From assembly GCA_028874995.1 (NCBI GenBank), contig JAPPGM010000176.1, positions 1-37,177 on the forward strand: DNA of 37,177 nucleotides, given 5' to 3'. The DNA comes from Gemmatimonadota bacterium. GTDB taxonomy: Bacteria > Gemmatimonadota > Gemmatimonadetes > Longimicrobiales > Gaopeijiaceae. The position numbers and the translations under genes were made by a program. This document shows positions 10,550 through 37,177 of the stretch, one piece after another. Each line of letters starts with the position of its first letter. The first letter of the stretch is position 1. Below the pieces are notes generated by a model that did not search any database, was not told the DNA's origin, and worked only from the letters and a program-made list of their open reading frames with translations.

Positions 10550-11599
10550 TCAGGTTGGGGGAGCGAACGTCCCCATCTTCTCCCTGGCGAGCGCGAGCGT
10601 TTCGCCCGCTACCGCGCGGGCCCTTTCCCCCATTTCCATGACCCGTCCTTCCAGATCGGTCTCGCGGTCGAGGATGTCGGCGCGGCGCTCCCGCATCTCG
10701 CTGGTCAGGGCCACCAGCGCGTCCGCGGTGAGGCCCTTGAGATCAACGTAGCGCAAAGTACCCGCGAAGTAATCCCGCCGCATCTGGTCGGCCTCGTCCC
10801 GGTGGCCGCACGCACCCAGGAGGGTGAGCAGGTTATCGATGCCCGGACTGGCCTTGCGGTCGCCCCCATCTCCCGCGCCTGCCGCCGGCGCCGCTCCCGA
10901 GTCGGTCACCGCGGAACGGATCTTCCGGCGGATCGAATCCTCCTCCTCGAAGAGGCCGATGTAGTGCTTCGGACCTAGGCTCTTGCTCATCTTGCGGGTC
11001 GGGTCGGCCGTGGAGAGGACCTTGGTGATGGGCGTGTGCAGGGTCTCTGGCTCGGGGAACAGATGGCCGAAACGCGAGTTGAAGCGCCGCGCGATGCCGC
11101 GGCTCAGCTCGAGGTGCTGCGACTGGTCCTGCCCGACGGGAACGCAGTCGGCGCGGTAGGCCAGGATGTCGGCGGCCTGGAGGACGGGGTAGAAGAGGAG
11201 GCCGGCCGATATGAAATCGCCGTCGTCCTCGGCGAGTCCGGTTCTGAGCAGGCCGGATTTCTCCTTGAACTGGGTCATGCGGGAGAGGTCGCCGAGCGAC
11301 GTGAGCGTCGCGAGCATCCAGCACAGTTCGGTCTGTTCGGGGACGGTCGACTGGACGTAGACGATCGTGCGGTCCGGGTCGATGCCGGCCGCAAGCAGGC
11401 TGACGAACATCCCGGTCGACGCAGCGCGCAACTCGGCCGCGTCGTAGGGCGCCGTCATGGCGTGCAGGTCCACGACGCAGTAGATGCAATCGCACTCGTC
11501 CTGCAGCCGGACCCAGTTCTGCACGGCGCCGAAGTAGTTGCCGATGGTCATGACGGCGGTGGGCTGGATGCCGGAGTAGACGCGTTTGCGGGGGGGCAT
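10550..11599 (-). CDS. trpS: Tryptophanyl-tRNA synthetase
   Basis: TrpRS, 349 residues, a class Ic synthetase that charges tRNA-Trp. The N-terminal YSGIQPTAVMTIGNYFGA contains the HIGH-equivalent T-I-G-N. The VDLHAMT block, V-G-x-D-Q-x-Q-H-L-E-L segment and K-M-S-K-S class I signature (followed by LGPK) are all in place. A short Gly/Ala insertion (about residues 238-252) follows the KMSKS domain. It is the first gene of a trpS-dapA-like-purA run, with about 50 nt to the next gene. Confidence 0.97.
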   Translation of the reverse strand: MPPRKRVYSGIQPTAVMTIGNYFGAVQNWVRLQDECDCIYCVVDLHAMTAPYDAAELRAASTGMFVSLLAAGIDPDRTIVYVQSTVPEQTELCWMLATLTSLGDLSRMTQFKEKSGLLRTGLAEDDGDFISAGLLFYPVLQAADILAYRADCVPVGQDQSQHLELSRGIARRFNSRFGHLFPEPETLHTPITKVLSTADPTRKMSKSLGPKHYIGLFEEEDSIRRKIRSAVTDSGAAPAAGAGDGGDRKASPGIDNLLTLLGACGHRDEADQMRRDYFAGTLRYVDLKGLTADALVALTSEMRERRADILDRETDLEGRVMEMGERARAVAGETLALAREKMGTFAPPT

Positions 11600-11790
11600 G
11601 GGGTGGGGGGGAGTGGAAGGTCGGTGGGCGGAGGGTCCCGCGGCGGAGAGAACGGCTGGCGAAACCGCCGCGTTAAGGCGGAGTGCTAAGTTAGCGGAGC
11701 GTGGCCGCGAGTTCGACCCTCTCCGGGGGCGAGCGGCGCGTGGACAGGGTCGGTCGCGCCTCGAGAGGGGTGAGGCTCGTGGGCAAGAGG

Positions 11791-11830
11791 TATACTATGG
11801 ATTACATAATGGAAAGTGCAATGTACATTG
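11791..11830 (+). promoter_or_regulatory. Candidate -10 and 12-bp palindrome at the IMPase start
   Basis: TATACT (11791-11796) is a good -10-like hexamer in an AT-rich patch, though no matching -35 is seen. CAATGTACATTG (11819-11830) is a perfect 12-bp palindrome. TACATAATGGAA and TACATTGGAA form an imperfect direct repeat. If translation starts at the TTG at 11828 or later, the palindrome is untranslated and operator-like. The rest of 11600-11790 shows nothing recognisable. Confidence 0.35.
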
Positions 11831-12688
11831 GAACGAGTTGAAGCGAAGCGGTCCAATCCGGATGAGTCGCGGGCCGCTCGCCTGCTGGCAACAGCAAAGG
11901 AGGCCGCGAATGCGGCGGCGCGGGTGCACCGTGAGGCGGCGCGGCGTGGCGGCGGCCGGTGGATCGACGAGAAGACCGCGCACAGCGACTTCGTCTCGGA
12001 TGTGGACATGGCCGCGCAAGAGGCCGCGGTGGCGGTGATCGCCGCGCGGCATCCGGACCACAGGGTGCTGGCCGAGGAGGACGGGGGTGGCCGGGAGGGG
12101 GCCCCGGATACCGATCGCCTCTGGCTGGTGGACCCGCTCGATGGGACGACCAACTTCCTGCACGGACATCCGTACTACGCGGCTTCGGTGGCGGTTTGGG
12201 ACGGCGAGGGTCCGCTTGCGGCGGCGGTCGAGGCGCAGGCGCTGGGCAAGGTGTGGACCGCGGCGCGGATGCGGGGTGCGCGTGAGAACGGGGAGCCGAT
12301 TCGGGTGAGCCGCACGGACAGAATCGAGCGGTTTCTGGTGGGGACGGGGTTTCCGTTCAAGGCGCATGAACTGCTGCCGGGTTACCTGGCCGAGCTGGAC
12401 CGGGTGCTGCGGTCGACGGCGGGGGTGCGGAGGACGGGGGCCGCCGCGATCGACCTGGCCTATGTGGCGAACGGGATCCTGGACGGGTTCTGGGAATCGC
12501 GGCTGGCGCCGTGGGACTACGCGGCGGGGATGCTGCTGGTGGCGGAGGCGGGGGGCGTGGTGGAGCGGGTGGAGGGGGGTGGGGTGGGGGTGGTCGCGGG
12601 GTCGGTGATCGCGGCGAATTCGGTCGAGGGGGTGGGGTGGTTGCGGGGGGTGGTGGTGGGTGGGTCAGATAAGACTCCCACCTCGTGA
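11816..12688 (+). CDS. Inositol monophosphatase family protein
   Basis: A Mg-dependent, Li-sensitive phosphatase-fold enzyme, 290 residues; family substrates are inositol-1-phosphate, histidinol phosphate or related sugars. The first acidic ligand is in LAEED, the signature L-V-D-P-L-D-G-T-T-N-F is at about 105, and the third Asp lies in the W-D-Y-A-A-G block. The C-terminal strand GSVIAANSVEGVGWLR is followed by an atypical Gly/Val tail ending SDKTPTS. The codons for this C-terminus are repeated at 14669-14717 beyond the ATPase-PIN cassette, so the present tail probably came with that insertion. The GTG start at 11816 has only a weak GGAA upstream; TTG at 11828 is possible. Confidence 0.92.
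   Translation: MQCTLERVEAKRSNPDESRAARLLATAKEAANAAARVHREAARRGGGRWIDEKTAHSDFVSDVDMAAQEAAVAVIAARHPDHRVLAEEDGGGREGAPDTDRLWLVDPLDGTTNFLHGHPYYAASVAVWDGEGPLAAAVEAQALGKVWTAARMRGARENGEPIRVSRTDRIERFLVGTGFPFKAHELLPGYLAELDRVLRSTAGVRRTGAAAIDLAYVANGILDGFWESRLAPWDYAAGMLLVAEAGGVVERVEGGGVGVVAGSVIAANSVEGVGWLRGVVVGGSDKTPTS
12597..12645 (+). repeat. 49-bp direct repeat, left copy (IMPase 3' end)
   Basis: Identical to 14669-14717 at 45 of 49 positions, same orientation and same reading frame. The four differences are GTG/GTA, GGG/GCG, GTG/GTA and TTG/CTG codons, so three are synonymous. This is the pattern left when an element integrates into the 3' end of a gene and supplies a diverged replacement end. Confidence 0.85.
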
Positions 12689-26449: not shown

Positions 26450-27418
26450 TCACGGGCCGCCCTCGATCCAGGTGCCGAGGGCCTCGTACTTGGCCCAGCG
26501 CTCGGTGAGCAGGCGGTCGGTCTCCCTGGCGTCGAGCGCGTTCAGGTGGCGGGTGATGGTGCGCGCCACCGCGGCCATGGTGGACGGCGGGTCCGCGTGG
26601 GCACCGCCGGGGGGCTCGGGAATGACCTCGTCGGCAACCCCGAGCGCGAGCAGGTCCGCCGAGGTGAGGCGCAGCGCGCTGGCGGCCTTCTCCCGCTCCT
26701 CGGCCGAACGCCACAGGATCGCGGCGCACCCCTCCGGCGAGATGACGGAGTAGATCGAGTGCTCCAGGAGGAGGATCCGGTCGGTGACCCCCAGGGCGAG
26801 CGCCCCGCCCGAGCCCCCTTCGCCGATCACCACGCAGACGGTCGGGGCTCGCAGCCGGGCCATCTCGCGCAGGTTCGTGGCGATCGCCTCGGCCTGGCCC
26901 CGCTCCTCGGCGCCGAACCCCGGATACGCGCCCGGCGTGTCGATCAGCGTGACGACGGGCCGCCCGAACTTCTCGGCCATCTTCATGAGGCGCAACGCCT
27001 TGCGGTATCCCTCGGGATGGGGCATGCCGAAGTTGCGGCGCAGGTTCTCCTTCATGTCCCGGCCCTTCTGGTGCCCGATCACCATGACCGATCTGCCGTC
27101 GAGCCGGGCCCAGCCGCCGACGATCGCCTCGTCGTCGCGGTAGCGCCGGTCGCCCCTGAGTTCGAACCAGTCGGTGAAGATGCCGTCGATGTAGTCGAGG
27201 GTGTAGGGGCGGCGCGGATGGCGGGCAACCTGCACCTGCTCCATCGGGGTCAGGTTGCGGTAGGTCTCGTCGCGAAGGACATCGAGCTTCGCGGTGAGGA
27301 CCCGCACCTCGTCCCGCACATCCAGACCGCGCCTGGCCGCCATGTCCCGCAGCCGCGCGATCTGCCCCTCTATCTCGACGATGTCCCGCTCGAAGGAGAA
27401 GTGCGATGAGGAAGACAT
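26450..27418 (-). CDS. accA: Acetyl-CoA carboxylase carboxyltransferase subunit alpha
   Basis: AccA, 322 residues, with AccD transfers CO2 from carboxybiotin to acetyl-CoA to make malonyl-CoA for fatty acid synthesis. Family blocks are all intact: H-P-R-R-P-Y-T-L-D-Y-I, the V-T-L-I-D-T-P-G-A-Y-P-G block, G-E-G-G-S-G-G-A-L-A-L and Y-S-V-I-S-P-E-G-C-A-A-I-L. Length is normal. AAAGGAG is 8 nt before the ATG. First gene of the minus-strand run leading to ricT and the importer; the preceding 27419-27660 shows no gene. Confidence 0.97.
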   Translation of the reverse strand: MSSSSHFSFERDIVEIEGQIARLRDMAARRGLDVRDEVRVLTAKLDVLRDETYRNLTPMEQVQVARHPRRPYTLDYIDGIFTDWFELRGDRRYRDDEAIVGGWARLDGRSVMVIGHQKGRDMKENLRRNFGMPHPEGYRKALRLMKMAEKFGRPVVTLIDTPGAYPGFGAEERGQAEAIATNLREMARLRAPTVCVVIGEGGSGGALALGVTDRILLLEHSIYSVISPEGCAAILWRSAEEREKAASALRLTSADLLALGVADEVIPEPPGGAHADPPSTMAAVARTITRHLNALDARETDRLLTERWAKYEALGTWIEGGP

Positions 27419-27660
27419 CCGGTGTGCTCCTTTGTGGGTTGCAAGGGGGAAAGGTACACGGGAGGCTCGGTTTCGCGAAAGCGGGGGGGCGAGGGGGAAG
27501 CAGGGGACCGGAACCGAATGGTGAGGGTCTGGTAAACACGGGATGCGCGGCGGACGTATTCTTTAAGGTGCCGGAGTGTTTCCGGGAGGTCGGCCGGGAT
27601 CGTGAAGGGGCGCAAGCGGGCGCCGAAGGACGGGGAAAGCAATCGAACGGAGGACGAGCC

Positions 27661-28965
27661 GTGAGGAGAACGGGACTTGCAGGGGTGGTGGTGGTGGTGG
27701 CCGGAATCGCGGGCCAGGTGGTCGCGCAGGACCGGCCGCTGAGCGCGGATTTCGCGGAGGTCTACAGGGTGGGCGGCGTGAATGCACCCGATTGGGCCTT
27801 CTTCACGGGGCGCTCGCCCACGGGATTCGACGCCGCCGGCAACCTGCATGTGCTGGACATGCAGTACCCTCAAGTGGTGATCATCGACCCGCGGGGACGG
27901 CTCGTGCGCACGGTGGGACGCGGGGGTGAAGCGGCCGGCGAGTTCGACGCGGCCGCGGATATCTTCGTTTGGCGGGACGGCCGCTTCGTCGTGATGGACA
28001 GGGGGCAGAACGCCTACCAGGTCTTCGGCCCGGAGGGAGAACTGGAGCACTACGTCAGCAGGGGCGGTGGAACAGGCCTATTCACGTCCTTCAGCAATGA
28101 GAGAGCGAGAATGCGGCCCGACCCCGCGGGCGGCGCGCTGATCGCCCAGGGAATGCCGTCGTTCATGGGGGACGTGTTGTCGGGCGTGTTCGAGCAAATG
28201 GCCGAACTGACGGGCCAATCCGTCGAAACACCGGAACCGGGGGTCGACGACCGCGGTCTTGAACGGCTAGACCTTACGGGGGATGTCGTATCCGCGACGC
28301 CGATACTCCGGACGTGGCGGGTGCCACGCCTGGAAGCACAGGAAGAATTGAGCATCGAGGACCTCGCCGATCCCTCGACCTTGGCGGGGATCATGAACCT
28401 GGTCCGATACTTTGAGCCGTTCATGTCCTGGGACGTGCTGCCGGACGGGACGCTGGCCTACTCCGACTCCACCGCCTACGCCATCAAGCTTGCCCAACCC
28501 TCGGGCCAGGTGATCGGCGTGCTGCGCCGTCCGATCCAGGCCGAGGTGGTCACCGACCGCATTCGTCAGGCAACGATCGACAACGAACTGCGGGAACTCG
28601 AGGAAGGGATGGCGTCCGCGGAATCGGAAACGGCTGCGTTGGCGGGTATCTTCGCGGAGACGATCGACGACCAGCGGAGATTGGTCGAGGAGCGCGGATT
28701 CTATCCCGAAATCCAGGTCGTTCGGGGCGTGGAGGCCACCTGGGGGGGCGCCCTGTGGATCCAGCGGCGTGGCGAGGATCCGTGGGACGATTCGGGACCC
28801 ATCGACGTCTTCGGCGCGAACCGCGAGTATGTGGGGACGTTCGCGGAGGGGGAAACGGAGATGCCGGCCGCTTTCGGACCCGGCGGTCTGGTAGTGTTCT
28901 GGGAATTCGACGAACTGGACGTGCCGACGATCGTGGTGAAGAGGCTGCCGGAGGAGGTGCGGTAG
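27661..28965 (+). CDS. Secreted six-bladed beta-propeller protein, copy 1
   Basis: A 434-residue exported protein with a short signal peptide ending V-V-A-Q. The N-terminal half contains NHL/6-bladed propeller repeats, for example F-D-A-A-G-N-L-H-V-L-D-x-x-x-x-x-V-V-I-I-D-P-x-G. The C-terminal block W-I-Q-R-R-G-E-D-P-W-D is shared with the next two genes. The GTG at 27661 was chosen because GGAGG sits 7 nt upstream and the signal peptide follows directly. The function is unknown: such propellers bind ligands or proteins at the cell surface. It is the first of three tandem paralogues. Confidence 0.88.
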   Translation: MRRTGLAGVVVVVAGIAGQVVAQDRPLSADFAEVYRVGGVNAPDWAFFTGRSPTGFDAAGNLHVLDMQYPQVVIIDPRGRLVRTVGRGGEAAGEFDAAADIFVWRDGRFVVMDRGQNAYQVFGPEGELEHYVSRGGGTGLFTSFSNERARMRPDPAGGALIAQGMPSFMGDVLSGVFEQMAELTGQSVETPEPGVDDRGLERLDLTGDVVSATPILRTWRVPRLEAQEELSIEDLADPSTLAGIMNLVRYFEPFMSWDVLPDGTLAYSDSTAYAIKLAQPSGQVIGVLRRPIQAEVVTDRIRQATIDNELRELEEGMASAESETAALAGIFAETIDDQRRLVEERGFYPEIQVVRGVEATWGGALWIQRRGEDPWDDSGPIDVFGANREYVGTFAEGETEMPAAFGPGGLVVFWEFDELDVPTIVVKRLPEEVR

Positions 28966-29101
28966 GGGGATCGCACGGGACCCGGCGGCGGTGATTCTCC
29001 GCACCCTAGTGAAGCGGTGGCGCAGTATGATACGTACCGGCGGGGAGCGCTGGGGCGCTCGCAGGGAACGAACCACAGTGCAGCAATGCGGAGATCGAGC
29101 C

Positions 29102-30421
29102 ATGAGAAAACCAATCGTCCGTCTGCTCGGTGCCGGACTGGGCGTAGCCCTTGCGGCCACGAGCCAGCTATCGGCCCAGGACCGCCCGCTTTCCGCCGAC
29201 CTCGCCGAGGTCTACCGCGCGGGCGGATTGAACGCGGAGGAGTGGGCTTTTTTCGAGGACTCGGCGAAGGCGGCGTTCGACGCGGCCGGCAACCTGTTCG
29301 TTCTGGACCGAGCGGCCGGGCATATCGTGGTGATCGACCCGCAGGGGAAGCTGGTCCGTACCTTCGGGCGCACGGGACAAGGACCGGGCGAGTTCACCAT
29401 GGTGATGGACGTTGTCGTCTGGCGGGACGGGCGCTCGGGCGTGTCCGACCTGGGCCACGCCGCGATCCTGATCTTCACCCCGGACGGAGCATTCGAACGT
29501 TCCGTGAGGATGGCCAGTGGCCAGGGCCCCGCAGCCATGTTTACCGGAGCGAGAGCGGGGCTGAAGTCCGACCCGCTGGGCAATGCGCTGATCGCCCCGG
29601 GACCGCCGGCGGCCATGGGACGAATGGCGCAGCTGATCGGCGGGGCCCTGGGGGAAGACGTGGAAGTCCCGGACGCGGGGGTTGACGAGCGCGGACTCGA
29701 GAGGCTCGGCCTCGATGGAGATGTCGTTTCCGCAACGCCGATCCTGCAGGGATGGAGGGTACCACGGGGGGAAGCCCCCGAACTGGGCGTGGACGACCTC
29801 GCGGATCCCTCGGACTTCGCTGACGGACTGATGGGCGATGTCAGGCACCTGGAGCCCCGTTTCCACTGGGATCCGCTCCCCGGCGGCGGCATCGCCTACT
29901 CCGACTCGTCGGCCTACGCCGTCAAGCTCGCCGGCCCCGAAGGTGAGGTGATCGACGTGCTGACGCGGCCGTTCTCTCCCGAAGTGGTGACGGAGCGCAT
30001 CCGTGAGGGCACGATCGCCTACACGCTTCGCAGAATGGAGGAGGAATTCGAGAAACAGTCCCGGGATCCGGAGTTGGCTGGACTATTGGAGGGGGCCGCG
30101 TCCATCATGCCGGGCTTTATGGAGACCATGCGGGAGCAGGTCGCGAAGCAGGGGTTCCACCACGAAGTCCCGGTCGTGCGCGGCGTGCGCGCCACCTGGG
30201 ACGGCTCCCTGTGGATCCAGCGGCGAGGCGAGGAAGCGTGGGACGACGCGGGTCCGATCGATGTGTTCGGCGTGGATCGCGAGTACGTGGGAACCCTCGC
30301 GGCGGGCGCCCCCGGGATGCCCGTGGCGTTCGGACCGGACGGTCTGGTCGCCTACTGGGAATTCGACGAGATGGACATGCCGATGATCGTGGTGAAGAGG
30401 CTGCCGGCGGCGATAAGATAG
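29102..30421 (+). CDS. Secreted six-bladed beta-propeller protein, copy 2
   Basis: 439 residues, paralogous over the whole length to the genes on both sides. It has a signal peptide ending L-S-A-Q, the D-R-P-L-S-A-D-L-A-E-V-Y-R start, F-D-A-A-G-N-L-F-V-L-D and V-V-I-D-P-Q-G-K-L-V-R-T-F-G-R propeller strands, and the W-I-Q-R-R-G-E-E end block. The ATG has GGAG 8 nt upstream. A TATGAT -10-like hexamer at 29026-29031 in the preceding gap, without a good -35, hints at its own promoter. The ligand is unknown; the middle region (about 150-200) is the most divergent among copies. Confidence 0.88.
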   Translation: MRKPIVRLLGAGLGVALAATSQLSAQDRPLSADLAEVYRAGGLNAEEWAFFEDSAKAAFDAAGNLFVLDRAAGHIVVIDPQGKLVRTFGRTGQGPGEFTMVMDVVVWRDGRSGVSDLGHAAILIFTPDGAFERSVRMASGQGPAAMFTGARAGLKSDPLGNALIAPGPPAAMGRMAQLIGGALGEDVEVPDAGVDERGLERLGLDGDVVSATPILQGWRVPRGEAPELGVDDLADPSDFADGLMGDVRHLEPRFHWDPLPGGGIAYSDSSAYAVKLAGPEGEVIDVLTRPFSPEVVTERIREGTIAYTLRRMEEEFEKQSRDPELAGLLEGAASIMPGFMETMREQVAKQGFHHEVPVVRGVRATWDGSLWIQRRGEEAWDDAGPIDVFGVDREYVGTLAAGAPGMPVAFGPDGLVAYWEFDEMDMPMIVVKRLPAAIR

Positions 30422-30472
30422 GGGGGCGATGGGCGCTGGTTCCGGTCGCATTTTCCAGAAGGGCGAAGAGTG

Positions 30473-31723
30473 ATGCCGAATTTGAGGATTGTCCTGCTGT
30501 TCGTGGCGGGTGCCGGGGTGGCGGGATCCGGATCCGGTGTGGCCGGACAGGACCGCCCCGTTGCCGGGGAGTTGACCGAGGTCTACCGCGTGGGCGGATT
30601 GAGCGCGCCCGAATGGGCCCAGTTCGTCGACCCCTCGCGGATGGGCTTCGACGCTTCCGGCAACCTCTACGTCCTGGATACGGATGCCTACCAGGTGGTC
30701 GTGATCGGCGCCGGGGGGGATCTGGTGATGACCGTCGGGCGGGAAGGCGAGGGGCCGGGAGAGTTCCGGGCCCCCGCCGACATCGTGGTCTGGCGTGACG
30801 GACACTTCGGCGTGGTCGACATGATGCACGGTGCATACCAGCTCTTCACCCCGGATGGCGGGCTCGAGCGGTTCGTCAGGATGAGTTCGGCAACGGGCGA
30901 GGTCGGCATGGCCGCGGCCCGGGCGACCGTCAGAGCCGATCCGGCCGGCGGCGCGGTGATCGCGGAGGGAGCGTCGATGGGCGCGATCTTCTTTTCGATG
31001 ATGGCGGAGGAGATCGAGGGTGAGCAGATCGACGTGGTCGGCGAGAACGGGAAGCTGGAACGGCTCGATCTGAGTGGCCAGGTCGCGGTCGCGGAATCCA
31101 TCGCGCATGCAAGGCAGGTCGTCCCCATGAGCCTCGAGGCGAACCCGCCGTACTTCGCACCAAGGGTGATCTGGGATGTGCTCCCCGACGGCACCATCGC
31201 CTACTTCGACTCCACGGCCTACGAGATCAATCTCGTCGGCGTGGACGGCGGCTCGAAGGGCGTGCTGGAGCGCCCACTGCGTGCCGAAACCGTGACCGAC
31301 GGGATCCGCTCGGCGGTGATCAGGCATCTGACCGAGGAGATGGAAAAGGCTTTCAAGGAATTGGCCAGGGAAATGGCGGAGCTGATGCCGGCAGAGGAAA
31401 TGGAAGAGATGCCGGACATGGACGAACAGGCCCGCGAAAGGGCCGAGAGGACCGAGTTCTACGCGGAAATCCCCGTCCTGCGAGGGCTGCGCGCCACCTG
31501 GGACGGTTCCCTCTGGGTTCAGCGGCGCGGCGAAGATCCCTGGGACCACAACGGCCCCATCGACGTTCTAGGCGCGGACGGGGAGTATCGAGGAACCCTG
31601 GCGCCGGGTGATCCCGGGATGCCGGAAGCGTTCGGACCTGGCGGCCTCGTCGCGTTCGTGGAGCTGGACGAGATGGACGTGCCTACGATCGTGGTGAGGA
31701 GGCTGCCGGCGGAGGTGCGTTAG
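30473..31723 (+). CDS. Secreted six-bladed beta-propeller protein, copy 3
   Basis: 416 residues, third tandem paralogue. It has a Gly/Ala signal peptide ending G-V-A-G-Q, D-R-P-V-A-G-E-L-T-E-V-Y-R-V-G-G, F-D-A-S-G-N-L-Y-V-L-D and the W-V-Q-R-R-G-E-D-P-W-D end block. It differs by a Met/Glu-rich helix (about 300-335) before the last blade. GTG (30470) and ATG (30473) are adjacent; the ATG is better placed relative to AAGGG. It is followed directly by a stub of a fourth copy. Confidence 0.88.
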   Translation: MPNLRIVLLFVAGAGVAGSGSGVAGQDRPVAGELTEVYRVGGLSAPEWAQFVDPSRMGFDASGNLYVLDTDAYQVVVIGAGGDLVMTVGREGEGPGEFRAPADIVVWRDGHFGVVDMMHGAYQLFTPDGGLERFVRMSSATGEVGMAAARATVRADPAGGAVIAEGASMGAIFFSMMAEEIEGEQIDVVGENGKLERLDLSGQVAVAESIAHARQVVPMSLEANPPYFAPRVIWDVLPDGTIAYFDSTAYEINLVGVDGGSKGVLERPLRAETVTDGIRSAVIRHLTEEMEKAFKELAREMAELMPAEEMEEMPDMDEQARERAERTEFYAEIPVLRGLRATWDGSLWVQRRGEDPWDHNGPIDVLGADGEYRGTLAPGDPGMPEAFGPGGLVAFVELDEMDVPTIVVRRLPAEVR

Positions 31724-31853: not shown

Positions 31854-32912
31854 ATGCATACCACATGCATGTTCTGCAAGAAACCCCTCGGCACCAACGA
31901 GGTCGTCGAGAGTTTCCCGGTGGGACGCCGGCTGGCGTTCGACGCCGCCAAGGGACGGCTCTGGGTAGTGTGCAGGAAATGCCAACGCTGGAACCTGACA
32001 CCACTCGAGGAACGCTGGGAGGCGGTGGAGGACTGCGAGCGCCTGTTCCGCGAGATACCGACGAGGGCATCGACCGAGAACATCGGGATCGCCCGCCACA
32101 AGGAGGGGCTGGACCTGGTGCGCATCGGAGAGCCGCCGCGCGGGGAGTTCGCGGCCTGGCGGTATGGGGATCAGCTCGGGACGCGGCTCCGCAAACAACT
32201 GGTGTGGGCCGGGTCGATGGGGGGCTGCGTGCTGATCGGCGCGTCGGGTCTGATCCCGCTCCCGGCGCTCGCCGTGGCGGCGATTGGCGGGGGGGCCTAT
32301 CCGGTTCTGGCCTGGGAGTACCTGCGTCCCGTGGTAAAGGTCCGTGTCGAGGAAAGTGACGACGGCGGCCCCGCGGCGCCGGATGAGGTCGCAAGGTTCA
32401 GCCGTCACAACCTCCGTTCCATTCGGCTGTTGCCCGCCGAAGATGAACCGGGATTCAGCGTCGAGGTGTCCAAGGGGATGCGGAAGGCGCTGTTTCCCGG
32501 CGATGGCGCCCGCCGTGTGGCCGCCACGCTCCTGCCGCACCTCAACGGATGGGGCGGCTCCCGCCTGTCGGTCGAGCGCGCCGTGCACGAAATCGAATCC
32601 GAGGGTGATCCCGGGCGCTTCGTCGCCCGCGTCGCAAAGCTGGGCTACCGGAACTGGCGGGGCCGGTCGGGGAACATCGCCAGCTTCCCGTATTGTACGA
32701 GACTCGCCCTCGAAATGGCCGTCCACGAGGAGCAGGAGCGCCGGGCCCTCGAGGGCGAACTGTGGCTTCTGGAACAGGCGTGGAAGGAAGCGGAGGAGAT
32801 TGCGGCCATCGCGGACAACCTCCTTCTTCCGGCGGGCGCGGACGCCTTTTTCGACCGGCACGGGGAGGACACCGGGAGCCGAAGGGGAACCGGTCGGCGG
32901 CGCTGGTCGTAG
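31854..32912 (+). CDS. Zinc-ribbon membrane protein of unknown function
   Basis: 352 residues. The N-terminus has two CxxC knuckles (C5-x2-C8 and C40-x2-C43), as in a zinc ribbon. After a charged region come two hydrophobic helices (about 118-155) that should form a membrane hairpin. The C-terminal ~190 residues are soluble and helical, with an H-E-E-Q-E-R-R-A-L-E-G-E-L segment near residue 290. I do not recognise a named family. The start at 31854 places the first Cys at residue 5. A second copy's first codons lie at 32956, so this was a tandem pair. Confidence 0.8.
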   Translation: MHTTCMFCKKPLGTNEVVESFPVGRRLAFDAAKGRLWVVCRKCQRWNLTPLEERWEAVEDCERLFREIPTRASTENIGIARHKEGLDLVRIGEPPRGEFAAWRYGDQLGTRLRKQLVWAGSMGGCVLIGASGLIPLPALAVAAIGGGAYPVLAWEYLRPVVKVRVEESDDGGPAAPDEVARFSRHNLRSIRLLPAEDEPGFSVEVSKGMRKALFPGDGARRVAATLLPHLNGWGGSRLSVERAVHEIESEGDPGRFVARVAKLGYRNWRGRSGNIASFPYCTRLALEMAVHEEQERRALEGELWLLEQAWKEAEEIAAIADNLLLPAGADAFFDRHGEDTGSRRGTGRRRWS

Positions 32913-32955
32913 CCCGTCATGGTGAAGTAACGCCCTCCAACCGACAAGAATCGCC

Positions 32956-33000
32956 GTGTACACGACATGCATGTTCTGGTGGAGAAAACTTCCTAAGTAG
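32956..33000 (+). pseudogene. 5' remnant of a zinc-ribbon paralogue, cut by the island
   Basis: Codons from GTG read M-Y-T-T-C-M-F and then lose similarity, against M-H-T-T-C-M-F-C in the intact gene at 31854. ACATGCATGTTCTG is identical in both. Homology stops at about 32983, exactly where an AT-rich foreign sequence starts, so this marks an insertion point. Confidence 0.7.
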
Positions 33001-33010
33001 TTACAAAACA

Positions 33011-33058
33011 GTGATATAGAGAAACATCCATGAGTTTCGTTATCACTTTTCTTATCAC
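33011..33058. repeat. AT-rich direct and inverted repeats at the island end
   Basis: TTATCAC occurs at 33040-33046 and 33052-33058 (12-nt period), with an inverted half GTGATA at 33011-33016. This could be part of an attachment/arm-binding site or an operator. The remaining 33059-33178 holds no convincing gene. Confidence 0.4.
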
Positions 33059-33178
33059 TCGGTGCTCCAACGGCGGGACCAAGAGTGGGAAGGGGACGTG
33101 ACTGGATCTAGCTGGACGAGCGCGGTCTGCTTGCAGGGTCCGGAGTACTTAGGTTGGCCGGCTGGGGGAACTCGCCGG

Positions 33179-33292
33179 CTACCGACGGCGGCGAGGAAAC
33201 ACGCGGCGCGCTGCGGCCCGCACGTCGGTGGACAGCCCGAAGATGACGGCGACGGCCAGTGCCCCGAGGGCGAGGTAAAGGAGCAGGCTCAC
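33179..33292 (-). CDS. 37-residue single-pass membrane protein
   Basis: A very small ORF. A hydrophobic helix L-L-L-Y-L-A-L-G-A-L-A-V-A-V-I-F-G-L (3-20) is followed by a strongly basic tail ending R-R-V-F-P-R-R-R-R. Its GTG start overlaps the stop of the upstream 76-residue gene as GTGA, and GGAGG lies 7 nt before it, so it is very likely translated. The shape (one TM helix plus a basic tail) recalls small membrane-acting toxins or phage small proteins, but no family is claimed. Confidence 0.6.
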   Translation of the reverse strand: MSLLLYLALGALAVAVIFGLSTDVRAAARRVFPRRRR

Positions 33293-33519
33293 GGCCCGAC
33301 CTCCGGGAACCGGTCCGACTGCTCGCCCGCCGGTATCTGGCGGAGCTTCCGCACCGCGCGCGACACGTCGCGGGCATCGGAGCGGATCAAGAGCCACTCG
33401 TCGCCGAACCGGATCAGGCGGACCCAACACAACCCGTCCCCGGCTTCGTCGATGGCGACGACTTCGCGGGCGTGGATCTTCCGCCCGTAGGCTTGCCCGA
33501 TGATGCCGCTGTCGCTCAC
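33289..33519 (-). CDS. Small hypothetical protein of the island cargo operon
   Basis: 76 residues, unrecognised. It reads as a small beta-rich domain (G-R-K-I-H-A-R-E-V-V-A-I-D-E and W-V-R-L-I-R-F-G-D-E-W-L-L-I) followed by a basic helix R-D-V-S-R-A-V-R-K-L-R-Q-I. The start is GTG. It lies 18 nt after the HEPN-like gene and overlaps the 37-residue gene by 4 nt, so the three form one operon. Confidence 0.6.
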   Translation of the reverse strand: MSDSGIIGQAYGRKIHAREVVAIDEAGDGLCWVRLIRFGDEWLLIRSDARDVSRAVRKLRQIPAGEQSDRFPEVGP

Positions 33520-33537
33520 GAGATGGATCCCGCTCCG

Positions 33538-34362
33538 TCACAGATCTACGGAGTCGTCCGCCCAGGACCGGCGTACACGCGCACCGATACCCTCGATAAC
33601 CTCTTCCACGGTATCTACGCAGTGCTCGATGAACTCCCTTGACATATAGAAAATCCAAGGGTCCCCATCTGATTCGGCTCTTTCGAAGCAATCCGTCCAC
33701 CCGTTCGACTTGATCAGGTTGGCGAAGTCCTTCAGGTCCTTGCTGGGCCATTCGAGACCGCAATGGAACATCTTGTTCCGATACTCGAAAAGAACCGACA
33801 GGGTTCTCGCGAGATCCGCGGGAAGGTGCTGTTTCAAGTCGATGGCCTCAGCAAGCTGGACGATCCCCTTGGCGATGTCGCCAGATCGACGACCACGCTT
33901 CCAGAGGTAGCGATGATCCCAGCGATCGTCGAGTTGCCACCGTTCGTGGCCGCTCCCCAGCGAATACGACTCCCCCACGGCATGCTTAAGGTAGAGGAAA
34001 GCCCGACCGAACAGGGACTCCATGAGCGGGGCTATTAAGCCAACAGCCGCCATGCTGTGCGTAGCACCAAGAAACGTGGAACTGTGCAGCTTGTCGACCC
34101 AGTGATCGACCAACCACGAGTCACCCCCGCGCTTCCGAATATCGGCCTCAAGCTGCTTGATCTCCGCCGAGACCTTCTCTTCGGCCTCTCGATTGCGCTC
34201 CAGCACGACGCGGACCGCGATCAACTGAGACCGGAAGTCCGGTTCAAGAATTCCTTCCCCGATATCCTGGTCGGTGATCTCCTCAAGGCCGAATCCTGCG
34301 TATTCAGACAGATACTGTAGGTATTCCTCGGCAGAAACTGTGGAGTCGTCGTGTTCGGTCAT
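33538..34362 (-). CDS. HEPN-like protein with RNKxxH motif, candidate RNase
   Basis: 274 residues from the ATG at 34362; a GTG at 34398 would add 12. The protein is helical: an acidic N-terminal part and a charged helix (E-R-N-R-E-A-E-E-K-V-S-A-E-I-K-Q-L-E) precede a domain rich in Trp, His and Arg. Then comes L-F-E-Y-R195-N-K-M-F-H200, an R-x4-H motif with Asn at the second position, as in many HEPN RNases. HEPN proteins serve in toxin-antitoxin, abortive infection and CRISPR effectors. No nucleotidyltransferase partner is adjacent; the two small downstream genes are the likely partners. Codon use is more AT-rich than that of chromosomal neighbours. Confidence 0.7.
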   Translation of the reverse strand: MTEHDDSTVSAEEYLQYLSEYAGFGLEEITDQDIGEGILEPDFRSQLIAVRVVLERNREAEEKVSAEIKQLEADIRKRGGDSWLVDHWVDKLHSSTFLGATHSMAAVGLIAPLMESLFGRAFLYLKHAVGESYSLGSGHERWQLDDRWDHRYLWKRGRRSGDIAKGIVQLAEAIDLKQHLPADLARTLSVLFEYRNKMFHCGLEWPSKDLKDFANLIKSNGWTDCFERAESDGDPWIFYMSREFIEHCVDTVEEVIEGIGARVRRSWADDSVDL

Positions 34363-34486
34363 CGGCACGGTATCCCTGTTTTCTCGTTCACGGTTCACGA
34401 TGTATGGGGAGGCACCAAAGTCGGAAGGTAACCTGCCCCCAGAGACGACGAAGCCCGCCGCCGAGCGGAAGGTTCAGCGCAGTGGC

Positions 34487-35200
34487 TTATAGCCGCCTAG
34501 AGACCCAGACTGCGCGTCCGACGACGCGAACCTCCTCGGCGGGCCGTTCGTAGCTGTCGTACTCGGGATTGAGGGACTTGAGCACCACGCGGGCCGGCTC
34601 GGAATGCGGCACGTGCTCGATTCGCTTGGCGACGAGCCCCATGCCGTCCCAGATCACGAAGATGCCGGGCGGCACCGGCACCTGACGGCTCACATCGATC
34701 AGGATGCGGTCTCCGCTCGATAGCAGCGGCTCCATCGAGTCGCCGTCGACCGCGATCATTTGCAGGTCCTCGGGCTTGGCGCGGAACTCGTGGCGGATCA
34801 GGGGATCGGCGAACAGCCACATGTCCTTGGTCCGCTCGAACTCGTCGTTCCAAGCCCCCGGACCCGCCGACGCCCGGACATCGATCTCCGGCACGGCGCT
34901 GTAGCCCCTCGGGGCGGCGTGCGGCGCGACCACGGGCGGTTTCCGGCGCGTCTTGCGGCTGAAGCCCCGGTCGTGCCTGAGCAGGTCGGGGCTGCACCCC
35001 AAATGCTCCGCCAGCGCCTCACGGTCGTCCTCGGCCAGAACCTTGGGCGTGCCCCGGTGGATGAACTGGTGCAGGTAGGCGGGGTTGCGCTCCATGGCGC
35101 GCGAGGCCGTACGCAGGTTCGTGCGGCTATCGGCCACCAGCCGGAGCAGCCTCCGGCGCACCGGGTCCAGTTGATCGGTGTCTTTCCTTCTTCGCCCCAT
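34487..35200 (-). CDS. S24-family (CI/LexA-like) transcriptional repressor
   Basis: 237 residues. The N-terminal helical DNA-binding domain contains T-A-S-R-A-M-E-R-N-P-A-Y-L-H-Q-F-I. The C-terminal S24 peptidase has V-D-G-D-S155-M-E-P-L and the catalytic Lys in G-L-V-A-K192-R. An A112-G113 pair in the linker (S-A-G-P) fits a RecA-stimulated self-cleavage site. It should keep the island quiet and respond to DNA damage. The ATG at 35200 was chosen over a TTG at 35236, which would put the operator inside the gene. Operators at 35206 and 35330 lie between it and the divergent HTH gene. Confidence 0.92.
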   Translation of the reverse strand: MGRRRKDTDQLDPVRRRLLRLVADSRTNLRTASRAMERNPAYLHQFIHRGTPKVLAEDDREALAEHLGCSPDLLRHDRGFSRKTRRKPPVVAPHAAPRGYSAVPEIDVRASAGPGAWNDEFERTKDMWLFADPLIRHEFRAKPEDLQMIAVDGDSMEPLLSSGDRILIDVSRQVPVPPGIFVIWDGMGLVAKRIEHVPHSEPARVVLKSLNPEYDSYERPAEEVRVVGRAVWVSRRL

Positions 35201-35205
35201 GAGTG

Positions 35206-35222
35206 GGAAATTACCTACTTCC
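35206..35222. promoter_or_regulatory. Operator O1 of the island switch
   Basis: GGAAATTA-C-CTACTTCC is an imperfect 17-bp palindrome (half-site GGAARTAG). It is part of a 27-bp sequence repeated at 35327-35353 with 21 identities. It sits right before the repressor ATG, so repressor binding would autoregulate. Confidence 0.65.
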
Positions 35223-35329
35223 TGCCGCCAGAGCAACCAGCTTCCCGATACACCGAAAGCGGCTTTTGGCCGGACTGGCGATGATCTCCAGAAGTCCAGT
35301 TCCGTATCCCGTTGTCTCTCAATGACGTG

Positions 35330-35346
35330 GGATATAGCCTATTTCC
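35330..35346. promoter_or_regulatory. Operator O2 of the island switch
   Basis: GGATATAG-C-CTATTTCC pairs at 7 of 8 arm positions and shares the half-site with O1. It lies 62 nt upstream of the HTH gene at 35408, as expected for control of the rightward promoter. Confidence 0.65.
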
Positions 35347-35407
35347 TACCACCTTGCGGCGCTTGCCGCCACCGTGTTTTGGTGGATGGGCAATGGAGAG
35401 CCTGACG

Positions 35408-35641
35408 ATGCACTTCGAGCGCCGCGTGGCCGCGATTCTTCGGCGCGTGCGGATGTCGCCGTCTGAGTTCGGAGAGCGCGCGGTCGGGGACCGGAAGCTC
35501 CTCGGCGACATGCGCCGGGGCCGTTCGCCGAGGCTGGCGACCGCGGACCGGGTTCTGGCGTTCATGGATGCTTTCGGCCGGAGTCGCGAATCGGACGGTT
35601 CCCGGGATTCATCAATGAGCGAAGGAGGTAGGAAAGGATGA
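35408..35641 (+). CDS. Small HTH protein, Cro-like position
   Basis: 77 residues, reading as a short helix-turn-helix: R-R-V-A-A-I-L-R-R-V-R-M-S-P-S-E-F-G-E-R-A then L-G-D-M-R-R-G-R-S-P-R-L-A-T-A-D-R-V. The tail is polar. The ATG at 35408 has GGAG 9 nt upstream; an ATG at 35393 is possible. It is divergent from the S24 repressor and overlaps alpA by 4 nt (ATGA), the place of a Cro or excision regulator. Confidence 0.65.
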   Translation: MHFERRVAAILRRVRMSPSEFGERAVGDRKLLGDMRRGRSPRLATADRVLAFMDAFGRSRESDGSRDSSMSEGGRKG

Positions 35642-35865
35642 CGAGCACGACCGAGCGCAAGACACTGTTAGGGGTACGCTTCCTGCGGCTCCCGGAGGTG
35701 CTGGAGCGTACTGGCCTGTCGCGGAGCACGATCTACGTGCGGCTGGAGCAGGGGCTTTTCCCGAGGCCCGTGTCGTTGGGCGCTCGCGCGGTGGGCTGGA
35801 TCGAGTCCGAGGTGGACGAGTGGATCCGGCAGCGGATCGAGGACAGCCGGGACGGCGCGGCGTGA
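35638..35865 (+). CDS. alpA: AlpA-family transcriptional regulator / excisionase-like
   Basis: 75 residues: F-L-R-L-P-E-V-L-E-R-T-G-L-S-R-S-T-I-Y then F-P-R-P-V-S-L-G-A-R-A-V-G-W and E-V-D-E-W-I, the complete AlpA (phage_AlpA) signature. AlpA proteins activate integrase genes or assist excision of prophages and islands. Its start overlaps the upstream HTH gene, so both are made together when the repressor is released. It suggests an integrase gene elsewhere on the island. Confidence 0.92.
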   Translation: MTSTTERKTLLGVRFLRLPEVLERTGLSRSTIYVRLEQGLFPRPVSLGARAVGWIESEVDEWIRQRIEDSRDGAA

Positions 35866-36238
35866 GACAGGTTTCCGGCAGCCGTTGCCCACGGCGTTGG
35901 GGGAGCCGCTGGCGGAGCCCGATACGGCTCCGGGACGGCGCTGGAAGTCTTGGGAAACCGCCTCGATTCGGGCGGTTGACACGGTCGGAATCGGGCTTCT
36001 CCGTGTACGGGTATGGAGACGCCGCCGACCCGAGATTCCCAGCGCCGCAAGCCGTCCGGCGTGCCTCCCCGAAGGCTGGCTGACGGCCTTGAGGTCCGTA
36101 AGCCAGCCGACTCCGTGTTGAACACGGAGGCTGGCGAGGGGATGCTGCGCCCCCCTTCGAACCCCCGGCCTTTCGCGCCGCCGCGCAAGCAGCGGCCGCG
36201 CGGGGGCGAGGCCCCCGAACCCCGTCTCCGGTGCGCTT
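35866..36238 (+). other. Non-coding hairpin-rich region, candidate oriT
   Basis: No convincing gene lies in these 373 nt between alpA and mobC. GGCTGGCT (36074-36081) pairs with AGCCAGCC (36101-36108), extended inside by ACGG/CCGT. The same GCCAGC (36102-36107) can instead pair with GCTGGC (36130-36135), around CTCCGTGT-TGA-ACACGGAG (36111-36129). The two hairpins exclude each other. CGGTGCG/CGCACCG (36229-36235, 36251-36257) straddles the mobC start. The position directly upstream of mobC and a relaxase gene is typical of oriT. Confidence 0.45.
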
Positions 36239-36577
36239 GTGGCTGAGCATCGCACCGTGATGGTCGCCGCGCGCGTCACGCCCGCCGAGCACGCCGCTTG
36301 GCGGGCGAAGGCGGCTGCGGTGGGCGTCTCCCCCTCCGCGCTGCTGCGCGAGGCGATGGCGCGGACGCGGACATGGACCGCGTCGGCGCGGTCCGTCGAG
36401 CGCGAGCGCACCCGCCAGATCGCGCGCATCGGAAACAACCTGAACCAGTTGGCGCGCTGGGCGAACACCCACGCTTCGGCGGCCGAGGCCGTCTCGGTGA
36501 TCGCCCACCTCGTGTCGTTCGAGCGCTCGCTGCTCCGTGTCGCCCGCATCGGCGAGGACGGCGGTGATGCACCTTAA
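36239..36577 (+). CDS. mobC: MobC-like relaxosome accessory protein
   Basis: 112 residues. An N-terminal ribbon-helix-helix-like segment (V-M-V-A-A-R-V-T-P-A-E-H-A-A-W, then S-P-S-A-L-L-R-E-A-M) is followed by the MobC signature I-A-R-I-G-N-N-L-N-Q-L-A-R-W-A-N. MobC proteins bind oriT and help the relaxase open the DNA. The start is GTG; an ATG at codon 8 is an alternative. The gene overlaps the relaxase start by 11 nt. Confidence 0.9.
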   Translation: MAEHRTVMVAARVTPAEHAAWRAKAAAVGVSPSALLREAMARTRTWTASARSVERERTRQIARIGNNLNQLARWANTHASAAEAVSVIAHLVSFERSLLRVARIGEDGGDAP

Positions 36578-37177
36578 GTTTCTCGCGCACGGGACCGGAT
36601 CGGCCCGGAAGGCGGCCGACTATCTCGTCGGTGAACGGGACGCGGCGGGAGAGGAGCGCGAAGGCGTCGAGGTCCTGCGCGGGAATCCGGACATGGTGGC
36701 CGCCGTGGCCGACTCCCTCGACTTCGAGCGGAAGTACAGGTCGGCCGTGATCGCGTGGGCACCGGAGGACCGGCCCACCGATGAGCAGATCGAAGCCGTC
36801 CTCGACGAGTTCGAGAAGACGGCGTGGGCGGGACTGGAGCACCCTGATCCGCGACTACCTCGTGCAGCGCGTCGAGCACGGCGCGGTCAAGGGCCGCGCC
36901 GACGTGGTCTCCGCGCTGGAGGATGTGGGGCTGGAGGTGCCGCGCCAGGGCAAGGACTACATCACCGCCCGCGATCCCGACAGCGGAAAGCGGTGGCGGC
37001 TGAAGGGAGAACTGTATGAGCGAGACTTCGAGCCCGAACGACTTGACCTCCCGGCTGAGGAGCAGGCTGGAGACCGACCGGCAACGGATCGAGGACGCAG
37101 CCGCGCGAGAGCTCGCGCGGCTTGGAGAGAACTTGAGCGCCGTCGCAAGCGGCGCGCTGCGTTCCATCGAGGCCGAT
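36567..37177 (+). pseudogene. Relaxase with internal deletion and frameshift, partial at window edge
   Basis: The N-terminal part (M-H-L-K-F-L-A-H-G-T-G-S-A-R-K-A-A-D-Y19) keeps the motif I Tyr expected of MOBP/ColE1-type relaxases. After K-T-A-W-A-G-L-E (about 36837) the frame runs into low-complexity sequence and stops at 37019. A different frame, from about 36832 onward, reads D-W-S-T-L-I-R-D-Y-L-V-Q-R-V-E-H-G-A-V-K and G-K-D-Y-I-T-A-R-D-P, typical relaxase middle/C-terminal sequence, and stays open to the window end. The metal-binding motif III region that should lie between the two is absent. The gene is therefore broken by a deletion joined out of frame and is probably non-functional. 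Confidence 0.8.
37016..37177 (+). CDS. MbeB-like mobilization protein, nested in the relaxase gene, partial
   Basis: 54 codons to the window edge without a stop. The sequence includes S-R-L-R-S-R-L-E-T-D-R-Q-R-I-E-D, then A-R-E-L-A-R-L-G-E-N-L-S and A-L-R-S-I-E-A-D. This Arg/Glu-rich helix pattern is that of the MbeB N-terminal region. It is in a different frame from both relaxase segments. GGGAG is 6 nt before the ATG. In ColE1, mbeB lies wholly inside mbeA in another frame, and the same layout is seen here. Confidence 0.7.
   Translation, partial: MSETSSPNDLTSRLRSRLETDRQRIEDAAARELARLGENLSAVASGALRSIEAD

Follow-up and report, generated by a model that had tools for sequence, protein, structure and literature searches.

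In ColE1, the genes mbeB and mbeD are nested within mbeA. The MbeA/MOBP relaxases of ColE1-type plasmids (NF047848; PF03432) are the closest described counterparts of the relaxase gene analyzed here; they share with it Tyr19 and a MobC gene upstream, and the plasmids are also alike in having small mob genes in or behind mobA (match to MbeD/MobD, PF04899). The best plasmid relaxases among the matches listed are 48-53% identical to an intact relative of the present protein over residues 1-245 to 1-338. In contrast to the plasmid genes, however, the copy described here is chromosomal, lies on an integrase-bearing island and appears to be inactivated. When the intact relative was compared with 72,556 plasmid records, 3,445 matched, of which 3,299 are predicted to be mobilizable, with Escherichia and Klebsiella foremost; none of the matches covers 80% of the protein, and none is at least 60% identical to it.

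Relaxase decay has precedents. PMC5357655 describes three relaxase pseudogenes within IMEs, in IMEs with two relaxases, and PMC11389934 presents relaxase loss as leading to elements that are mobilized only in trans, in a reductive model of helper-dependent elements. The present island resembles the former in combining an integrase of its own with a decayed relaxase. The cases in the two papers differ in host and setting (streptococci; mostly plasmids), whereas here the exact lesion and the empty site can be given. A literature search of titles and abstract openings yielded no description that we recognized as this island family. We regard the relaxase loss as an ordinary kind of decay that is unusually well delimited.

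The window, i.e., the whole stretch of DNA analyzed (37,177 nucleotides), is the entire contig C64 of an uncultured bacterium's 4.52-Mb draft genome in 191 contigs. Its right-hand part carries the features listed below, some of which have their continuation or partner on contig C131 (18,759 bp).

32955..32978, + strand: attL (GTGTACACGACATGCATGTTCTGG), 22-bp direct repeat, 95%; partner attR at C131:9834-9856
33538..34398, - strand: island open reading frame, 286 aa; profile searches gave no Pfam match at E 0.1 and no PADLOC match at E 0.01
34487..35236, - strand: repressor-like protein with Peptidase S24 domain (PF00717, E 1.6e-12)
35638..35865, + strand: AlpA-type regulator (PF05930, E 1.8e-22)
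36101..36140, + strand: oriT-like hairpin, intact, with CTGGCGAGGG at its 3' side (pattern and covariation)
36239..36577, + strand: mobC, NikA-like relaxosome accessory gene, intact (PF21983, E 1.7e-13; PF05713, E 1.9e-11)
36567..36839, + strand: N-terminal fragment of mobA (MbeA-like relaxase) with Tyr19, 91 aa (NF047848 positions 1-86, E 1.9e-11)
36838..36840, + strand: deletion join, 284 bp absent compared with intact relatives (single-deletion modeling)
36838..37177, + strand: C-terminal fragment of mobA in another frame (NF047848 positions 178-248, E 1.6e-12; 36838-37176, 113 aa)
37016..37177, + strand: first part of a mobB-like gene, which lies within mobA but in a different frame and runs on into C131; product of 166 aa in which one hydrophobic segment is visible by eye
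37123..37177, + strand: exact 55-bp overlap with the first 55 bases of C131 (sequence identity)

The relaxase gene (ColE1/MbeA-like, MOBP-type; 36567-37177) is divided between two reading frames that split at 36838-36840, and the NF047848 positions between the two fragments are absent. This agrees with the original prediction of a MOBP-type relaxase with an internal out-of-frame deletion, whose two fragments are both recognizable in different frames. Since the 284 bp missing relative to the closest intact relative (L006) are not a multiple of three, the frame that starts with ATG at 36567 is read on out of frame to a stop ending at 37019, giving 150 residues of which the first 91 are native and the last 59 are not. 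The C-terminal frame has no stop at the contig end and continues into C131:1-681. Each piece separately matches the MbeA-like MOBP model with E 1e-11 to 1e-12, both at scores far below the NF047848 cut-off (500 bits, set for MbeA itself). Together with the comparison with plasmid relaxases and the island context, these matches identify the gene as a broken MbeA-like member carried by an IME. C131 holds the rest of mobA, with the mobB-like and mobD-like genes in other frames; the latter matches PF04899 (E 2.5e-07), and the C131 part of the former matches no Pfam family at E 0.01. We take the position of the mobB-like gene to be that of mbeB in ColE1.

Relatives were collected by scanning genome contigs with the N-terminal fragment, which found 175 loci, and the best 80 were kept. 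In viral contigs, seven stretches fitted a pattern, and none of them encodes a relative. The closest among these best 80 of 175, L006, has a complete gene of 507 codons, and its DNA is 95% identical to the window on both sides of the join. In the intact L006 gene, each possible single deletion between 200 and 359 bp was modeled in turn; the best fit, with 8 mismatches in 291 bp, was a loss of 284 bp that breaks at 36838-36840. The same size was best for 58 of 60 relatives with a frame of at least 300 codons and enough sequence, the remaining two giving 236 and 287. Alignment with intact relaxases, proposed along with the original prediction, thus puts the missing segment at 284 bp; the predicted join exists, a few bases to the right of the 36832-36837 at which it had been placed.

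As far as the contig end, mobA has no damage other than the deletion and few amino-acid changes, and for this reason the deletion is probably recent. The N part differs from L006 at 10 of 273 bases (7 synonymous and 3 nonsynonymous), and before the contig end the C part has 10 synonymous and 5 nonsynonymous changes. Followed into C131, the C frame is open for 322 codons, over which the changes total 22 synonymous and 54 nonsynonymous; mobB has 16 and 24, respectively, so that these few substitutions reveal no evident constraint on the overlapping region.

Residues about 92-186 of the relaxase are lost. Of the 47 relatives whose frames reach 490 codons or more, 44 were aligned and three left out; Y19, H102, H110, H112 and N127 are invariant across this alignment. 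Tyr19, presumably the catalytic residue, is retained in the window, and the three histidines and N127 all lie in the missing segment, as expected from the earlier claim that the metal-binding region is gone. Strands 96-103 and 109-116 fall inside the lost part in an AlphaFold model of an intact relative, which is weak overall (mean pLDDT 56.4; ten-residue blocks over 1-120 average 51 to 92). The best fold match of this weak model is the minimal relaxase domain of R1162 MobA (2ns6, E 8.7e-05; 19% identity), followed by 4ht4 (E 5.0e-04), which we take to be a staphylococcal relaxase; a sequence search of the PDB gave nothing meaningful (best E 0.46). Because the deletion takes the central strands with the metal-binding residues, we infer that an active relaxase cannot be made from the broken gene, even by frameshifting. 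Judged from its sequence, mobA in the window is a relaxase pseudogene that would provide no working relaxase.

Among the alternatives, an assembly error has to be considered most seriously, and we judge it rather unlikely as the source of the join. It would mean that a complete relaxase gene exists in the cell and that two ends within a multi-copy family were wrongly joined near a contig end. C64 does end 337 bp beyond the join, and its 55-bp overlap with C131 reads like a branch of a k-mer graph (k 55). Related genomes hold several copies, a further oriT-like site lies at the end of contig C115, and an otherwise undamaged gene is equally expected from an error of this kind. However, mixing of copies in a k-mer graph joins sequences in register, via identical stretches as long as k, whereas at the present join the register is shifted by 284 bp and 2 bases are shared, which would need real DNA or faulty gap closure. 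Furthermore, the missing segment (profile positions 93-184) is found nowhere else in the draft, and the same relative, L006, is matched equally well on both sides.

A DNA search at E 0.001 or better gave matches in 42 of 121 genomes of the family and 124 of 395 genomes of the phylum, many of the weaker ones likely due to chance. Among the matches listed for these 121 and 395 genomes, only the own genome is matched in one piece through the join; the other genomes listed show two pieces with a gap, or a single side. One row from the single-contig genome G033 extends past the join position, with its true right part following 284 bp later, and L035 and L055 likewise align for a few bases beyond it, with the right part further on. 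The join occurs in none of the best 80 of 175 loci. Frames reach 490 codons or more in 47 of these 80 (in L059 and L061 running to a contig end), 18 others are open to the contig end and 15 are interrupted by varied lesions. In several of the 15 interrupted relaxases, the break comes later than residue 237 or so, and the catalytic domain may be kept, as far as their sequences tell; L041, L052, L072, L079 and L084 break in or just behind it, as does L023, beside a contig end. Relaxase decay thus recurs in the family, and the 284-bp lesion is seen only in the window among the relatives examined.

Two of these loci, L051 (313) and L080 (312), have a TAG at codon 4 of the relaxase (MHV*FL) and an unusual upstream sequence in common. 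At L072 (6001-6783, in a record titled Acidobacteria), an independent deletion of about residues 117-332 has removed the HxH residues and left a 260-codon frame open.

It is very improbable that the gene encodes a relaxase of naturally small size, or a truncated product retained for another role such as DNA binding or interference with related elements. MobC, the oriT-like site and mobB/mobD are all kept, as such a role might suggest, and the large deletion at L072 also leaves a single open frame; against this, the last 59 residues of the 150 are read out of frame, and the join is found in 0 of 80 loci and in no other match listed among the 121 and 395 genomes. A naturally short family with the same join, named at the outset as the contrary case, was sought in these same loci and genomes and none was listed; its absence from all relatives examined argues that no such family is involved.

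The bases GC are all that the two deletion ends have in common (2-bp microhomology), and among random break pairs within the relaxase gene, 22% share two bases or more. Slippage between G-L-E and G-L-E-H coding repeats, the origin first put forward, is scarcely credible: GGACTGGAG and GGGCTGGAACAC indeed lie at the two deletion ends in L006, but the 267 bp from GLE (L006:4383) to GLEH (L006:4650) are a multiple of three and would give an in-frame deletion, which leaves the join unexplained, the best 267-bp model has 105 mismatches compared with 8 for 284 bp, and the observed loss, being 17 bp larger, would require a second deletion of 17 bp.

The island comprises 32979-37177 of the window and C131:56-9856, in total 14,000 bp (4,199 in C64 after the repeat and 9,801 in C131). 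Its 22-bp direct repeat pairs 32957-32978 of the window with C131:9835-9856. A query consisting only of the flanks, with the island omitted, matches an unbroken stretch of 140 bp with 86% identity in a single-contig genome (G033:C1:2730442-2730581). The att repeats and this empty site together show the insertion site and set the length of the island, and the empty site also supports C64 and C131 belonging together. The element thus has its own integrase, att sites and an empty site in a relative, as an IME should, but the working relaxase that also belongs to an IME is broken; on these sequence features, the description that fits it best is that of an IME whose relaxase has decayed.

The island has inserted at the 5' end of a gene that belongs to a tandem array of paralogues. 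Adjoining the integrase are two paralogues (C131:9834-10922 and 10938-11972) of the gene at 31854-32912 of the window; members of the array have no Pfam match and start M-[HY]-T-T-C-[MI]-F-C, and similar paralogue 5' ends are present in 23 of 23 genomes of the genus. As for a tRNA attachment site, C131 contains no tRNA, and the single one in the window is far away. Further upstream, three adjacent genes (27406-31723) with like starts (QDRP[LV]...EVYR[VA]GG) have the look of another tandem family, and C115 holds frames somewhat similar to them.

The integrase, a tyrosine integrase with an arm-binding domain, is encoded on C131 (PF00589 at C131:8525-8977). The cargo (L105, contig C131, 2633-8309) consists of an Eco29kI-type restriction-modification pair, i.e., a DNA cytosine methylase (PF00145, E 4.8e-51) and an Eco29kI-type restriction enzyme (PF09517, E 4.4e-53). 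Behind this pair come a Vsr endonuclease, another cytosine methylase and a protein with an HATPase domain, for which PADLOC gives matches to type II restriction models. The DNA of the repressor-like gene (34487..35236) is conserved in L006, L038, L039, L043 and L060.

The hairpin at 36101..36140, placed between the AlpA and mobC genes, is a putative oriT. Of 68 relatives whose upstream DNA extends over 330 bp or more, 33 fit a strict hairpin pattern. From these 33, 14 of equal length were chosen and compared together with the window (14 distinct rows); in this set, pairing is seen in 94.5% of pair cells, and 22 cells are changed on both sides. The covariation score is reached by 0 of 500 shuffles; slid versions are only 30-47% paired, and the window copy is paired throughout. 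Near the copies in G033 and a second single-contig genome, G032, the strict pattern occurs in one of seven stretches (the intact G032 copy) and is missed even beside the intact G033 copy. The own genome has two further oriT-like hairpins, both at contig starts: one (G000:C115:19-58, L141) has its mob side running off the contig end, and the other (G000:C189:49-88, L142) is imperfect, with 2 mismatches, and is followed by other genes. C189 and the window also share a stretch at about 33213-33520 (86%).

A search of the own genome with PF03432 gave 0 matches; since an intact relative scores only 30.8 bits with this model, above its cut-off of 24.6, a second search was made with a profile built from the full-length family, which found only the pieces on C64 and C131 and no other such relaxase in this genome. 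No PF02534 coupling protein was found in the whole draft. The two further oriT-like sites indicate that another mob module may be present in the genome, unassembled. On sequence, the integrase, AlpA, the oriT-like hairpin, mobC, mobB and mobD are intact, and because the mobility parts other than the relaxase look intact, rescue in trans by a foreign relaxase is plausible; most likely, the island would move only if another element lends it a relaxase. The explanation that we favor, with good confidence as a whole, is that of a 14.0-kb IME whose MbeA-like gene has suffered one frameshifting deletion of 284 bp, probably recently. Loss of the central metal-binding strands would leave it without active relaxase, the accessory parts are intact, and with its integrase the island would presumably still excise; a related relaxase acting in trans could then nick it and send it through a foreign mating pore.

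Relaxases of this family are widespread in the genus, with 20 of 23 genomes having one at E 1e-10; among the matches listed, 33 span the entire model with no stop and another three span it with one TAG, the latter possibly including L051 and L080. The two single-contig genomes each hold one full-length relaxase, along with remnants at two (G032) and three (G033) further places, which means that donor and dependent copies can share a chromosome. Relatives occur in records titled Gemmatimonadetes, Acidobacteria, Gammaproteobacteria and others, these being metagenome bins in which binning errors are possible. In one record titled Bryobacterales, L020 (6561-8410) is 92% identical to C64 and C131 along some 1.85 kb, pointing either to interphylum transfer or to faulty binning. 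A wider picture, in which a multi-copy chromosomal ColE1-type family across several phyla repeatedly loses relaxases, keeps oriT and accessory genes and is moved by intact copies, with cheaters and donors in one genome, is speculative and rather unlikely. The island itself would represent a first step from a self-initiating mobilizable island to a helper-dependent one, for which the parent, the lesion, the att sites and the empty site are all known. Its relatives among the Gemmatimonadota, and those in records titled Acidobacteria and Gammaproteobacteria, indicate that chromosomal ColE1-type mobilizable islands make up a large family.
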